From contig JAERSH010000044.1 of the NCBI GenBank assembly GCA_016845785.1, forward strand, positions 124,001 through 188,000: DNA of 64,000 nucleotides. The letters run 5' to 3'. A program made the position numbers and the translations under genes. Source of the stretch: Fidelibacterota bacterium. Lineage in GTDB: Bacteria; Fidelibacterota; Marinisomatia; Marinisomatales; TCS55. Below are positions 4,422-10,578 of this stretch, one piece after another. The notes below the pieces were generated by a model that was given only the letters and a program-made list of their open reading frames with translations, had not been told where the DNA came from and searched no databases. Each line of letters begins with the position of its first letter. Within the stretch, counting starts at the first letter, position 1.

Positions 4422-6656
4422 ATGTTGAAAAGATTACCAATTTTATGCCTCATTTTAATGGGGTCTCTGCTTTCGGCAGAAACCATCGGCCGCGTTATGA
4501 AAGCCAATGGAGAAGTGCTCATTAAACCCATTGGCGGCGGATCATATTCTGTAGCTGTAAAGCCGGGACAGGCCATTGCCAATGGAGATGCCATTCGCGT
4601 TGGCGAATCTAGTTTTGCGGTGGTTATATTTTTGGACGATAAATCTGTAGTAAAAATTCGTGAAAATACAGATTTCCAATTTGTAGAAACCTCTAATACC
4701 CGAAGTCTAATTATTGAGCAGGGGACAACCCTTCATAACGTCAATAAAGACAATCGCAAAAAGACATATCGAGTCGAGACACCTGTATCAGTTGCATCTG
4801 TAAAAGGCACTGAATTTTCTGCATTTCATGATGCCATAGCGGGGATAGACAAATTTGTCGGTAAAACTGGGAATTTCGAAGTATTTAATACCATTAGCGG
4901 TATGACCGTGAATGTAGGGGCAGGGCAAAAGGCTGTATCCAATGCGTTGGGGCAATTGATTCCAGCACCGGCCCAACCGGGGGATTATCCTCAGGATCCT
5001 GAAGGTGGTATACCTGACCAACAACAGGAAGAACCACAACCGGAAGATAGTCATGATACTCAAGATCAAAAGCAGGATCAGCCAGAACAACGGCAAGAGG
5101 ATACACGTCAAGAAGATCCTCAACAAGATCAAACAGAACCAGAAACCCAATCTGAACCATCGGATCCACAACCGGATCAACCCCAAACAGGGGATACCCC
5201 CAAACCAAAACCCAAGAAACCACTCAATCTGGGATTGGGTGTCGGTTCAGCAACAATTGACGGAAAATTGTATAATCAAGTGGCTTTGCGTCCGCAACTC
5301 TCATTCGGGAAATTAGGCATTGGTTTAGACTTGCCGATTTATATTGACAATGAAGGTAACATTCGAAAAGATGAATGGGATGAAGCTTCAGATATTATAG
5401 ACAAGTTTCTCTACATTAGCTGGGGAAAAAAATCCGATCCATTCTGGTTCAAATGGGGTGCGTTGAGTAATGTAACCCTTGGTTATGGCGGATTGCTAGG
5501 CGGTTATTCCAATATGATGGAATTTCCATCCGTACGAAAAGTGGGCATCAATACAGGCATGACTTTCGGTAATTTTGGCACGGAAGTATTTCTATCGAAT
5601 ATGAAAGAATTTACACGGGGCGGTACGCTGATGGGATTGCGTGGAACATATAAACTATCAGATGCAATTCCACTAACCTTTGGTGTGAATTTTGTCATGG
5701 ATATGAATCAATTCTCAGGATTAAAAGATGCGGATGATGATACGTATCCGGATATATTTGATGATTTTCCAAATGATAAAGATTATTGGAATGATACGGA
5801 CGGAGACGGTATTGCCGATAAAGATGGTGGAAACAAAGAGCCGGATACAGGCTGGGATATAGATGCAGACGGTGACAATATTCTGGATACGGTCGATGGT
5901 GAAGTGAAATTAAAACCGACCCCATTCAGTTTGAAAAATAATAAAGCCACCGCCCAAGGATTTGCTATCGATCTAGGCTATCCTGTCATTAAGAGTAAAG
6001 CTTTTAGTCTTGAAGCCTACATGGAATACAATAAATTGATTTTCCCGAAGGTGGCGGGCGACTCATACTATAGCCGAAAGGCCATGGATGGGACAGGGAT
6101 TACCGTCCCTGGTGTAAGGGCAAGCCTGTTCAGTTTCTTAAATGTGAGTTTCGAATACAGAATAAAACAGGGTTATTTTGCACCTCAGTTCTTTGATGGC
6201 AGTTATGACCTCTCTCGTGTGGTCGCGGAATTCAGCGATGCGGGTACCATTATCAGAACAAAGGAACAAGTGGTCTTAGTGGATTCATCCAATACATCTG
6301 GAATGTATGGTGCTGCTTCCGCCAATTTATTTAATCTCATGAGCTTTAATGCAGCCTATGCCAGCATGAAGGGTGAAGGGGATGTGGAATTCAACAGCTT
6401 CAATGCGATGCTAAATCTGAATGCTGAAAAAATTCCAAAACTGAGTGTGGCTCAAGTCTATTATCAACGGAATAACGATAAGAACCCATTTGACTTTTCT
6501 AACCCATCCATCAATACCATTTTTGGATATAAGGTTGGATATGAAGTGAGTGGTGGTGTGAGTTTAATTTGGGACTTCCGTCAATTTTATAGAGATACGG
6601 GCACAGGATTAGAACCGGTGAAACAAACCACTATTGAAACTGCATTCAATTTCTAA
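4422..6656 (+). CDS. FecR-domain protein with acidic PQ-rich linker, TSP3-like calcium repeats and C-terminal beta-barrel
   Basis: 744 residues with a signal peptide (LPILCLILMGSLLSA, cut near residue 20). A FecR domain spans about 25-170 (GRVMKANGEVLIKP, VSVASVKGTEFSAF). A glutamine/proline/aspartate-rich linker runs from ~185 to 265. The C-terminal ~480 residues look like alternating aromatic beta-strands and end in FNF, as expected for an outer-membrane barrel. At about 430-500 an Asp-rich segment (DADDDTYPDIFDDFPND; NDTDGDGIADKDG; DIDADGDNILD) matches thrombospondin type 3-like calcium loops, probably sitting in an extracellular loop of the barrel. FecR domains are usually periplasmic binding or signalling modules; the joint architecture suggests an envelope-spanning structural or sensing protein. 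No specific function can be assigned. Confidence 0.75.
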   Translation: MLKRLPILCLILMGSLLSAETIGRVMKANGEVLIKPIGGGSYSVAVKPGQAIANGDAIRVGESSFAVVIFLDDKSVVKIRENTDFQFVETSNTRSLIIEQGTTLHNVNKDNRKKTYRVETPVSVASVKGTEFSAFHDAIAGIDKFVGKTGNFEVFNTISGMTVNVGAGQKAVSNALGQLIPAPAQPGDYPQDPEGGIPDQQQEEPQPEDSHDTQDQKQDQPEQRQEDTRQEDPQQDQTEPETQSEPSDPQPDQPQTGDTPKPKPKKPLNLGLGVGSATIDGKLYNQVALRPQLSFGKLGIGLDLPIYIDNEGNIRKDEWDEASDIIDKFLYISWGKKSDPFWFKWGALSNVTLGYGGLLGGYSNMMEFPSVRKVGINTGMTFGNFGTEVFLSNMKEFTRGGTLMGLRGTYKLSDAIPLTFGVNFVMDMNQFSGLKDADDDTYPDIFDDFPNDKDYWNDTDGDGIADKDGGNKEPDTGWDIDADGDNILDTVDGEVKLKPTPFSLKNNKATAQGFAIDLGYPVIKSKAFSLEAYMEYNKLIFPKVAGDSYYSRKAMDGTGITVPGVRASLFSFLNVSFEYRIKQGYFAPQFFDGSYDLSRVVAEFSDAGTIIRTKEQVVLVDSSNTSGMYGAASANLFNLMSFNAAYASMKGEGDVEFNSFNAMLNLNAEKIPKLSVAQVYYQRNNDKNPFDFSNPSINTIFGYKVGYEVSGGVSLIWDFRQFYRDTGTGLEPVKQTTIETAFNF

Positions 6657-6790
6657 TGGATGACAATCTGAAAACGGTGTACCGTTATGACGCCGGTGGA
6701 AAGGGCTTTCGCAAAGCAGCCATAGTTTTAATTGGGTTGGCAAGTGTGTTGGCCCTGTTCGGATTCTTTTGGGTTAAATCGTGGATTTAA
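6656..6790 (+). CDS. Small single-pass membrane protein, 44 residues
   Basis: ATG at 6656 overlaps the stop of the barrel gene (TAATG) and the frame runs 44 codons to TAA 6788-6790. The product has a charged N-terminal half (MDDNLKTVYRYDAGGKGFRK) and then one hydrophobic helix (AAIVLIGLASVLALFGFFWV) ending in KSWI. The layout is that of a small inner-membrane protein with the N terminus inside. The tight coupling upstream, and the SelW-like gene only 9 bases downstream behind an AGAGG ribosome-binding site, argue that it is a real operon member. I do not recognise a family. The main alternative is a chance ORF, but the overlap and the clear helix make that less likely. Confidence 0.6.
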   Translation: MDDNLKTVYRYDAGGKGFRKAAIVLIGLASVLALFGFFWVKSWI

Positions 6791-6799
6791 AGAGGTAAA

Positions 6800-7033
6800 A
6801 TGAATATTTCGATCGAATATTGTAACGAGTGAAACTATCTACCCAGGGCGGCCGGTCTGGCTACCAAGATTTTAGAAACATATGGGAATGGCGTCTCAGA
6901 ATTGCAACTCATTCCGTCTGGAGGCGGCGTGTTTGAAGTGACAAAGAATGGTCATCTTTTATTCTCGAAAAAACAAGAAAGCCGTTTTCCGGAAATGGAT
7001 GAAATATTTGAGTTGTTGGCAAAGCCAGTTTAG
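6800..7033 (+). CDS. SelW-like (Rdx family) selenoprotein with in-frame UGA = selenocysteine
   Basis: From ATG 6800 (AGAGG at 6791-6795) the frame meets TGA at 6830-6832 and then continues for 66 more codons to TAG 7031-7033. Read with Sec at the TGA it gives 77 residues: IEYCNE-U-NYLPRAAGLA, later GGGVFEVTKNGHLLFSKK and SRFPEMDEIFELL. These are the diagnostic blocks of the Rdx/SelW family: C-x-x-C/U then RAxxL, GxFEVxxNGxLxFSK, and RFPxxxEI. Sec occupies residue 11, the second redox position after Cys8. Rdx proteins have a thioredoxin-like fold and are taken to be small thiol-selenol oxidoreductases in the cytoplasm; the partner is unknown. A GGUCU-loop hairpin lies 14-32 bases past the UGA. 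It follows the 44-residue membrane protein and its end overlaps the next gene by 35 bases. Standard gene callers miss it. Confidence 0.88.
6847..6865 (+). promoter_or_regulatory. Bacterial SECIS-like hairpin downstream of the UGA codon
   Basis: Arms GGCGGCC (6847-6853) and GGCTACC (6859-6865) close a GGUCU loop (6854-6858). The pairs are G-C, G-C, one C/A mismatch, G-U, G-C, C-G, C-G. A lower helix ATCT 6837-6840 with AGAT 6867-6870 can extend it. The loop starts 21 bases after the UGA. The E. coli fdhF SECIS, as I recall it, also shows a GGUCU apical loop about 18 bases after its UGA, so both loop and spacing fit SelB-dependent recoding. The structure was drawn by eye. Confidence 0.75.
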
Positions 7034-7796
7034 ATATGTTTTATCTGCACTGCTTGTAATCCCACTCATGGGACAAGAGCGGGATGTGGTTAATATTACG
7101 CGACATATTGGCCATACGCTGGATGCGGAAGAAAATCTCCATTATAAAGTATTTACGGATATACCCAATTTTGAAAGTGCCCAGTTTTTTGAAATAAATC
7201 CCGACCGATTTGAAGCGCGCATATCTTATGTTGAGTATACCAAAACGAAATTGAGTAAACGGGCATATACATTAAAATCCCTGACTGAACTACAATTCCG
7301 TCTGAATCAAATGTCCCAGATTACAGATGAAATCCGAGAATCCTATCAAAAAAACTTAACTTATCTTCGCACCAAAGAAGTTTTAGAGAATATCCCCACA
7401 GGCCAATATGTATCGGTCAAAGATATTAATGGAAAATGGGTGCGAGGTACTTTATTGTCCTTTCAAAAAGAAAAGCTGCGATTACAAACCCCGTTTGCCG
7501 TTAAACAAATTCCAATGAGCCAAATGGAACGAATCAACTATCGGGAAAAAATTATGAACCGTCCTGAATGGAAATTGACCATATACGGTATCGCTGCATT
7601 CATGGGGTTCGGGATGATGGAATCTTGGAACCGGCAAACCAACCCGGAATGGGGTTCTAAATGGCACAATCGATTTATGGGAAGTATTTTTGGATTGGTG
7701 GCAGGGGCTGAGGTTTACGATACATCCATGATATTATTATCAAAGAAAACTCAGTTTGGACTTACACCTGCAGAATTAGATAAATTAAACCGTTGA
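6999..7796 (+). CDS. Uncharacterised signal-peptide protein with SH3-like central segment and hydrophobic C-terminal region
   Basis: About 265 residues when started at ATG 6999, which gives a plausible signal peptide (SQFRYVLSALLVIPLMGQ). A longer start at 6948 would place an unlikely basic extension inside the selenoprotein gene. Residues ~125-180 (GQYVSVKDINGKWVRGTL, then KLRLQTPFAVKQIPMSQMERI) resemble a small Sm/SH3-like beta-barrel that ends in a 'xIpxxxIxxI' strand. Two hydrophobic stretches follow (LTIYGIAAFMGFGMM; FMGSIFGLVAGAEVY) and could be membrane segments. I recognise no named family. It overlaps the selenoprotein by 35 bases, which suggests coupled translation and perhaps a common envelope role. 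Confidence 0.65.
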   Translation: MKYLSCWQSQFRYVLSALLVIPLMGQERDVVNITRHIGHTLDAEENLHYKVFTDIPNFESAQFFEINPDRFEARISYVEYTKTKLSKRAYTLKSLTELQFRLNQMSQITDEIRESYQKNLTYLRTKEVLENIPTGQYVSVKDINGKWVRGTLLSFQKEKLRLQTPFAVKQIPMSQMERINYREKIMNRPEWKLTIYGIAAFMGFGMMESWNRQTNPEWGSKWHNRFMGSIFGLVAGAEVYDTSMILLSKKTQFGLTPAELDKLNR

Positions 7797-7811: not shown

Positions 7812-8183
7812 GTGCCAGAGACTCAAAAAGAATTCAATCAAGACTATTTAGCGGAAAAGCTTCAAGCCATCGGTGATAAGTTGGGGGATGCTTATGGTGC
7901 ACCCCTCATGGATGAATTGATCACCCGAATGGAGCGGACCGTAGCCCACTTTAACGAAGAAGTGGATGTAATGGTCAATACGCTCAAAAGCCGAACAAAA
8001 AATCAAAGAGGCCTGTTGGCATCCATGCGGGGAGAAGATCCAAACGCAGAACCGGTTGAATTAAGCGATTTAGAGAAAAAATTGGAAGCTGAAGGTGGGA
8101 GCAAAAAACAGAAAAAAGAAAAAACTGAAGCGCCGCCTAAAAAGAAAAAGTTTTCTCTATTTAAACGAAAAAAGAAAAAATGA
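7812..8183 (+). CDS. Uncharacterised coiled-coil protein, paralogue of the 26993-27328 product
   Basis: 123 residues from GTG 7812 (GGAGATA upstream). The conserved block YLAEKLQAIGDKLGDAYGAP followed by LMDELITRMERTV and FNEEVDVMV aligns closely with the product encoded at 26993-27328. After it come a predicted amphipathic helix and a lysine-rich tail (PPKKKKFSLFKRKKKK). No signal peptide or membrane helix is visible, so it is probably cytoplasmic; the basic tail could bind nucleic acid or the membrane face. The next gene overlaps by ATGA. The family is not recognised, but two copies in one window point to a lineage-specific conserved family. Confidence 0.65.
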   Translation: MPETQKEFNQDYLAEKLQAIGDKLGDAYGAPLMDELITRMERTVAHFNEEVDVMVNTLKSRTKNQRGLLASMRGEDPNAEPVELSDLEKKLEAEGGSKKQKKEKTEAPPKKKKFSLFKRKKKK

Positions 8184-8629: not shown

Positions 8630-8905
8630 TTGGTCGTGCTAGATGGGGAATTAGCGGTGCCCTGTAACCTGCAATCCGCTACAGCAGGATCGATGCTTGT
8701 ATGCGGCAAATGCTGAACTTCGTACTCGAATTAAGTGGTGTTGAAGTTTCAATTCTTCGCAATGGTTTTACACTAAACTCCGTCAGGACCGGAAGGGAGC
8801 AGCGGTAGGTGACTAGAATTGTGTGCCGGAGAACCCCTGGAATGGAGCTAACTGATTCGGTGTAAGTTGTCCCCAGATTTGTCAAGTGCGAGTGCACGGC
8901 CATCC
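8630..8905 (+). ncRNA. ffs: Signal recognition particle RNA, large form with Alu domain
   Basis: The domain IV core GTCAGGACCGGAAGGGAGCA lies at 8782-8801, with the GGAAG tetraloop region and the asymmetric loop that binds Ffh M domain. The 5' part (GCGGTGCCCTGTAACCTGCA, about 8654-8673) and the distal 3' part (AGTGCGAGTGCACGGCCATC) match the Alu-domain segments of the Bacillus-type scRNA, so this is the ~270-nt form and not the short 4.5S form. It targets nascent membrane and secreted proteins with Ffh and FtsY. It sits directly upstream of dnaX, as in Bacillus subtilis. Both ends are approximate. Confidence 0.9.
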
Positions 8906-8919
8906 TTATTTGAGAAAGC

Positions 8920-10578
8920 ATGTCATACCAAGTCTTATCCCTGAAATGGCGACCCCAATCCTTTGGGGATGTGATCGGCCAAGATCATGTCACCCAAACA
9001 TTGATCAACGCATTTAAAAAAGAACGCGTTGCCCAGGGATATATGCTCACGGGGCCTCGTGGTGTAGGTAAAACCACTACTGCACGGATTATCGCTAAAG
9101 CCTTAAACTGCCCAAATACAAAAGATGGTGTGCCCTGTAATGACTGCAATAACTGTCAAGAAATCACCGATGGCAGAAATTTGGATGTATTGGAAATTGA
9201 TGGTGCTTCTAACCGGGGAATTGAAGAAATCCGAAATCTTCGTGAGCAAATCAAATATGCGCCCATGAATGCGCCTTATAAAATATTCATTATTGATGAA
9301 GTCCACATGCTCACCAATCAGGCATTCAATGCACTGCTTCGGACTTTAGAAGAGCCGCCACCCCACGGTAAATTTATTTTAGCCACAACAGACATTCATA
9401 AGGTGCCATCTACCATTATTTCACGGTGTCAGCGGTTTGATTTTAACCGAATCACCGAAGCGACGATTGGGGAGCAGTTGAAGACCATTTTAGCGTCGGA
9501 AAAAATAAGTGCAGATGACGAGTCTATCAATGCCATTGCACGAAAAGCAGACGGCAGTATGCGTGATGGATTAAGTTTGATGGATCAAGTCATTGCTTAT
9601 GCGGGAGATTCAATCAAGATTGATGATGTATCTGCTGTCATTGGCCTCATCCCATTGGATGTATATTTTGGTTACTCTACCGCTATTATTGAGAAAGATG
9701 CTTCTAAGATGATGGATGTACTTCAATCCATCCGGACAACTGGATTGCCCCTAGAAGATGTGGCGCAGGGGTTGAATCATCATTTCCGAAATTTGATAAT
9801 AGGTACAGTGCCGAATGGCGATGGTCTTCTGGATTTAAATGAAGATCATAAAAAGCAATATATCGCCCATGCGACCTTATGGGATGGAAAGGATCTCCTG
9901 CGGGTAACCAAAGAATTAAATGAATTAGAATTCAGTTTAAAACGGGTGACACAACCGGTGATTCATTTTGAAATGACCGCAATGAAATTACTCGAAATGG
10001 ATACGTCTGTATCTATTGGTGAATTACTTTCGGGGGCGAAACCGGCAGAAGTAAAAAAAAATCCTAAGCCTGCACCAAAATCGGTAGATCCTGTCCCTCA
10101 AAAAGTGGTGTATAAAACCGTAGAGCCACCATCAAAGGTAGAAGCGCCCAAAGTGGCCACACCACCGCCTCCAGCGGAAAAAGAAGTAAAAACAAATACA
10201 AAAATATCCCTGGAAACTATTGAAGAAAAATGGGGTGGCTTAGTGGGTAAAATCACCAATGAAAGGCCATCCATAGGGACCGCATTGGAGCATAGTGCAC
10301 CGGCCGAACTTGATGGGAATAAATTGATTATCAATGTGTATGATTTGCCCAAATTCAGCGTGGGGAATTTGAATCGGAACAATCAAGTGATCGAGCGGTT
10401 TGTAGAAGAACATTATGGGGTGGAGCTCAAAATTAAGGCAGAATTGGACGAAGGAAATGGTTCAAAGAAATCAGCACCAACTCCAGTTTCGGAACCGCCA
10501 AAAGCTGCACCAACAGCAGACGGTGAAACAGTCGTATCCCGTGTGTTGGAAGTATTTGACGGCGAAATTTTAAGATAG
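8920..10578 (+). CDS. dnaX: DNA polymerase III subunit gamma/tau
   Basis: 552 residues. The clamp-loader AAA+ module carries Walker A GPRGVGKTT (45-53), a four-cysteine zinc motif (Cys64, 73, 76, 79), DExH-like DEVHM (from 126), and sensor/arginine-finger segments (ATTDIHK; ISRCQRFDF). Domain III ends near residue 365. A proline-rich linker follows and then a tau-type C-terminal domain (from ~415) that normally contacts the polymerase. It loads the beta clamp at the replication fork. An A9 run at codons 378-381 could yield a short gamma form. It heads the dnaX-ybaB-recR cluster just after the SRP RNA. Confidence 0.97.
   Translation: MSYQVLSLKWRPQSFGDVIGQDHVTQTLINAFKKERVAQGYMLTGPRGVGKTTTARIIAKALNCPNTKDGVPCNDCNNCQEITDGRNLDVLEIDGASNRGIEEIRNLREQIKYAPMNAPYKIFIIDEVHMLTNQAFNALLRTLEEPPPHGKFILATTDIHKVPSTIISRCQRFDFNRITEATIGEQLKTILASEKISADDESINAIARKADGSMRDGLSLMDQVIAYAGDSIKIDDVSAVIGLIPLDVYFGYSTAIIEKDASKMMDVLQSIRTTGLPLEDVAQGLNHHFRNLIIGTVPNGDGLLDLNEDHKKQYIAHATLWDGKDLLRVTKELNELEFSLKRVTQPVIHFEMTAMKLLEMDTSVSIGELLSGAKPAEVKKNPKPAPKSVDPVPQKVVYKTVEPPSKVEAPKVATPPPPAEKEVKTNTKISLETIEEKWGGLVGKITNERPSIGTALEHSAPAELDGNKLIINVYDLPKFSVGNLNRNNQVIERFVEEHYGVELKIKAELDEGNGSKKSAPTPVSEPPKAAPTADGETVVSRVLEVFDGEILR
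10053..10061 (+). other. A9 slippery run in dnaX, possible programmed frameshift or transcript slippage site
   Basis: Nine consecutive A residues are read as gtA AAA AAA AAt in frame 0. One base back (or one extra A in the mRNA) gives Lys-Ser-stop with TAA at 10065-10067. Loss of one A also leads to a stop within about ten codons. The product would end near residue 382, at the domain III/linker border where gamma ends in other bacteria. E. coli (A AAA AAG) and Thermus thermophilus (A9) dnaX use such runs. No strong downstream hairpin was seen. Confidence 0.55.

Follow-up and report, generated by a model that had tools for sequence, protein, structure and literature searches.

This locus raises the question of whether a short reading frame with an in-frame TGA is a selenoprotein gene. 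The window analyzed here, that is, the whole stretch of 64,000 nucleotides (G000:C44:124001-188000), comes from an assembly of 2.16 Mb in 93 contigs that is 93% complete. The initial annotation had described a 77-codon frame with TGA 6830-6832 as its only interruption, and our translation gave the same result: at 6800..7033 on the forward strand, 77 codons are followed by a TAG stop, and the sole internal TGA is residue 11. The conceptual protein is MNISIEYCNEUNYLPRAAGLATKILETYGNGVSELQLIPSGGGVFEVTKNGHLLFSKKQESRFPEMDEIFELLAKPV. Before the ATG at 6800, a purine stretch resembling a ribosome-binding site (AAGAGG, 6789..6794, forward strand) could be read directly in the sequence. In addition, the TGT codon at 6821..6823 of the same strand encodes Cys8, the partner cysteine of the CxxU motif, which is invariant across 34 aligned homologues. 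The redox motif is C8-N-E-U11 (C-x-x-U), and in the structural model it lies between a strand (residues 2-8) and a helix (residues 14-31). The UGA is therefore at the second redox position of C-x-x-C/U, as had been claimed. Judging from the frame, the profiles, the homologues and the model, we are highly confident that 6800-7033 is a SelW-like gene, the UGA of which would be decoded as selenocysteine (Sec) through tRNA-Sec, SelA, SelD, SelB, and a hairpin.

The profile searches supported the family assignment. When the UGA was read as Sec or Cys, Pfam Rdx (PF10262) matched with 85 bits (cut-off 22.6, E 4e-24) over residues 2-74, so that the conserved Rdx/SelW blocks indeed flank the UGA on both sides. 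TIGR02174 scored 67.6 bits (cut-off 34.2). Furthermore, the protein scored 98.3 bits against NF041051 (SelT/SelW/SelH family (seleno)protein), above the curated cut-off of 88, although this model is named SelTWH_Campy and was made for another phylum than that of the window. The closest named homologue, 87% identical, was from Marinimicrobia bacterium TCS55, and further close matches were from Candidatus Neomarinimicrobiota. Meanwhile, the nearest solved sequences, 2fa8 among them (phmmer, 1.2e-15), belong to SelW-related proteins. The AlphaFold model, built with 34 homologues as input and with Cys modelled for Sec, had a mean pLDDT of 95.8, and its best solved match in Foldseek was also 2fa8 (TM 0.89, rmsd 0.9, again with Cys for Sec); mouse SelW (2npb) gave a TM of 0.68. 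The Cys-type SelW-related structures 2fa8, 2ojl, and 3dex share the fold (TM 0.88-0.90, 36-39% identity), but in the sequence alignment they carry CxxC whereas the window protein carries CxxU. Thus, the profile score, the placement of the CxxC/CxxU motif, and the thioredoxin-like Rdx fold all agree with Rdx membership.

The UGA itself is strongly conserved. The codon at 6830..6832 (forward strand), which we read as Sec at residue 11, is TGA in 106 of 106 distinct aligned homologous sequences. An Rdx match was found in 70 of the 101 genomes of the order and in 144 of the 245 Neomarinimicrobiota (Marinimicrobia/SAR406) genomes. Among the matches listed for the phylum, all those covering the site contain a single in-frame TGA, and the few stop-free matches are partial and begin downstream of the site. 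Cys orthologues were sought, and among these listed site-spanning matches from the 245 genomes searched there was neither a Cys nor a TAA or TAG at the redox position. In addition, sister genomes keep the TGA and an intact frame instead of other stops or frameshifts. In a wider genome collection, whose loci include Bacillota, Chloroflexota, Gemmatimonadota, Acidobacteriota, and Proteobacteria, UGA occupies the redox site in 53 of 53 loci. The lack of a Cys form in the phylum sample and the wider loci is consistent with a previous report that Cys homologues of SelW-like proteins are very few or absent in Sec-containing organisms (PMC1794560). As a separate observation, in two loci (L123:3001-6350 and L131) the full gene is followed, about 3.2 kb downstream, by another SelW fragment, which is C-terminal, and an 820-aa metalloprotease-like gene lies between the two, as if by an insertion with duplication.

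In bacterial Sec decoding, hairpin-bound SelB delivers Sec-tRNA to the UGA. Here, the predicted SECIS-type hairpin (6847..6865, forward strand) would start 14 nt past the UGA, inside the coding sequence; its upper stem is formed by 6850-6853 and 6859-6862 and its loop is GGUCU (6854-6858). The SECIS of Escherichia coli fdhF also has a GGUCU apical loop, with 18 nt from the UGA to GGUCU. Thus, both have the same loop on a short stem downstream of the UGA. The initial annotation had placed the hairpin at the fdhF spacing. The hairpin and its loop are present, but the distance is 21 nt rather than 18, which is similar and not identical. AGU loops predominate among Neomarinimicrobiota members, and AGGAU occurs in one group, unlike the GGUCU of fdhF.

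The ViennaRNA fold was exactly the hairpin 6847-6865 with the loop GGUCU. However, its folding energy was no better than that of shuffles (z = +0.66, single sequence), and therefore comparison alone shows that the hairpin exceeds chance. Counted from the UGA, codons +6 and +10 have third bases (the pair 6850-6862, forward strand) that form standard pairs in 70 of 72 distinct Neomarinimicrobiota sequences, with six pair types (C-G 19, G-C 15, U-A 14, A-U 12, G-U 6, and U-G 4). By contrast, 29.5 pairs were expected from simple shuffles and 39.6 from amino-acid-preserving shuffles, and none of 2000 of the latter reached the observed pairing. These controls ignore the kinship of the sequences, and the guard against relatedness is the comparison of all 595 third-position pairs, in which the excess at +6/+10 (40) was the largest and the next was 13. 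With a single exception, codon +6 encodes Ala, and codon +10 encodes Ala or Glu; thus, the covarying changes are mostly silent. Covariation is also seen between codon +7, at its first base, and codon +10, at its second (G-C 47, U-A 19, and U-C 6).

Codon choice is restricted as well. The loop Ser at codon +8 is AGT in 53 of 53 cases, against 16% of Ser codons in the long ORFs of the window, and Ser at codon +7 is TCC in 25 of 25, against 19%. Furthermore, RNAalifold on a 111-nt alignment returned the hairpin 6847-6865 as the sole structure. The 34 sequences of other phyla showed the same pattern more weakly, with +6/+10 paired in 27 (null 17.8). The third positions of codons 5-11 and 4-12 gave no significant covariation below codon +6, so that our claim is restricted to the four pairs of the upper stem. 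An Rfam scan of the window at the gathering threshold matched no SECIS family, and the hairpin is thus without library support; silent-site covariation, codon restriction, and RNAalifold are what support the SECIS-type reading. In addition, seven loci (L016, L029, L030, L107, L108, L110, and L115) have the loop AGGAU, with AGG (Arg) at codon +8, which does not fit NGUNU. This loop may reflect a different SelB specificity.

A selenoprotein gene implies Sec machinery, and the initial annotation had expected SelA, SelB, SelD, and tRNA-Sec in this genome. The expectation held for tRNA-Sec (66.3 bits, cut-off 47; ARAGORN agrees) and for SelD, which is encoded by two genes, both interrupted in frame by one TGA (context GSG[U]ACK). 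The two selD genes (L041 on G000:C18 and L042 on G000:C5) are closely similar, and they may be paralogues or a strain mixture. Meanwhile, the TIGR00474 and TIGR00475 profiles found no SelA and no SelB above cut-off in this genome. However, the C-terminal 204 residues of SelB are present on the last bases of contig C25, with 72% identity. The same-genus gene order, taken from translations, is ffh-rpsP-KH-rimM-trmD-rplS-MFS-selA-selB-mutS, and selA adjoins selB in relatives. When an 18-kb segment from one relative (L102 of G006) was aligned to the window's genome, contig C21 began at base 1 inside trmD, and C25 (10,430 bp) matched up to base 10,424, within selB. Thus, the missing selA and the first two thirds of selB, the part of the expectation that we could not see, fall in an assembly break.

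The machinery is also common among relatives. In the 101 genomes of the order, selA was above cut-off in 75, selB in 74, tRNA-Sec was found in 64, and SelD in 79. Ten SelW-bearing genomes, including that of the window, had no selA or selB above cut-off, and most of them are incomplete. In family f15/g22, all 14 genomes (0.7-1.0 Mb; G053, G063, and 12 others) are without SelW, SelA, SelB, SelD, and tRNA-Sec, which suggests that Sec use was lost along with genome reduction. With the family, the fold, the conserved UGA, the hairpin covariation, and most Sec machinery genes established at the level of sequence, we infer that Sec is actually inserted in this organism.

Three other explanations should be weighed. 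A stop codon inside an otherwise ordinary Rdx frame could be caused by a nonsense mutation or a sequencing error in a Cys-type gene, which would then be a pseudogene. However, the codon is TGA, never TAA, TAG, or Cys, in all listed site-spanning matches of the phylum and is TGA in many other phyla, the frame is intact with residues conserved past it, and the hairpin covaries at silent sites; a pseudogene is thus extremely unlikely. The frame would also run on through the UGA if this were a sense codon throughout the genome, with a reassigned code and no Sec. We regard the probability of this as practically negligible, since 10 of the 45 long ORFs of the window terminate at UGA, selW has its single UGA at the redox site, and the genome contains tRNA-Sec, SelD, and part of SelB.

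A sequence does not reveal how efficiently Sec is inserted, and it is conceivable that the UGA is suppressed by another amino acid (e.g., Cys, by an unusual tRNA) or serves mainly for termination with minor Sec insertion. Nevertheless, the covariation of the hairpin, the Sec machinery, and the fact that family f15 lacks both gene and machinery make this very improbable. Sec at the redox position is therefore the reading that we keep; as far as sequence can tell, it is supported by the conservation of the UGA in homologues and by the machinery genes seen, and neither a genome devoid of the machinery nor other stops or frameshifts in sister genomes, which might have spoken against it, were observed.

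Within a thioredoxin-like fold, a CxxU motif serves as a selenol/thiol redox centre. The product would be a 77-residue SelW-like (Rdx) protein with this fold and a C-x-x-U redox motif. Its UGA would be decoded by tRNA-Sec (selC), charged via SelA and SelD, and SelB would deliver the Sec-tRNA by recognizing a short hairpin whose loop contains G(U). The predicted role is that of a cytosolic selenol/thiol redox protein, in which CxxU would form a selenenylsulfide.

The gene neighbourhood gives some further hints. Upstream is a conserved 744-aa protein with an N-terminal FecR domain (4422..6656), and downstream are a conserved 265-aa protein with a signal-peptide-like N-terminus (6999..7796) and a conserved 123-aa protein (7812..8183), all on the forward strand. 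A Pfam search of three downstream neighbours found no family. As the initial annotation had noticed, the ORF of the next gene is falsely extended into selW, and mechanically it reaches back to 6948. Most plausibly, this gene starts at ATG 6999, which gives a signal peptide and an overlap of 35 nt with the SelW frame. The FecR-domain protein and the 265-aa protein flank SelW in 52 of 69 Neomarinimicrobiota loci, and 47 of these 52 also retain the 123-aa protein. In eight loci of family f7 (L038:995-1498; L015, L025, L116, L118, L123, L124, and L128), a peroxiredoxin is directly upstream of SelW in place of the FecR-domain protein. In the one locus that was read through, the peroxiredoxin frame contains a TGA of its own (ADTPG[U]T), and the remaining ones have one TGA each in the genome search listing. 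Because a Sec-peroxiredoxin directly precedes SelW in this related family, SelW probably works in peroxide or thiol repair beside Sec-peroxiredoxins. A previous survey described ten GOS reads, from one small phylogenetic group, in which the selenoprotein genes for peroxiredoxin and SelW are adjacent (PMC2398784), and f7 is a candidate source of these reads. The window's genome also has two peroxiredoxin homologues with in-frame TGA (G000:C13:55077-55535 and G000:C9:37216-37668), which are candidates for further selenoproteins; the match on C9 additionally spans a TAA.

Published surveys (PMC1088965, PMC2398784) have shown since 2005 that SelW-like proteins are the commonest selenoproteins of marine bacteria, with reports from the Sargasso Sea (PMC1088965) and from GOS data (427; PMC2398784); the initial annotation had stated that they are known in marine bacterial sequences. 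The gene is therefore a further member of a known family. The survey sequences resemble ours in CxxU, in the small Rdx protein, and in a SECIS whose small apical loop carries G. However, they are environmental reads without assigned species, whereas here the genomes, the neighbourhood, the Sec-only occurrence in one phylum, and the joint absence with the machinery are resolved. Our literature search for Marinimicrobia/SAR406 with selenoprotein or selenocysteine found no paper describing SelW in Marinimicrobia. The suggestion that the gene may be undescribed in this lineage and this envelope operon is less well supported than the rest of the initial annotation, the family and the mechanism being already known. 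To the surveys the present analysis adds a taxonomic setting, the finding of no Cys form in the phylum sample, covariation at silent sites, and the observation that gene and machinery are missing together. Through its silent sites, the comparison also demonstrates a bacterial SECIS cleanly. Furthermore, since ordinary gene callers truncate or drop selW, the annotation of MAGs easily overlooks a protein that is conserved across a major phylum of uncultured marine bacteria.

We propose a broader picture tentatively, with slightly less than even confidence. In Neomarinimicrobiota, Sec-containing SelW would be obligatory (no Cys form was found) and would be located in a conserved FecR-type envelope cluster or directly behind a Sec-peroxiredoxin. 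Lineages with small genomes would have lost it together with all of the Sec machinery. The Sec trait of the phylum would then be kept by proteins such as SelW, SelD, and peroxiredoxin, and the AGGAU loop could mark co-evolution with SelB. Meanwhile, SAR406 single cells have been listed with an 'orphan' SelD (PMC5029168), and our results suggest that these may be incomplete assemblies of Sec-using organisms. In addition, a bacterial large SRP RNA gene was found in the window at 8634-8899, just upstream of dnaX.
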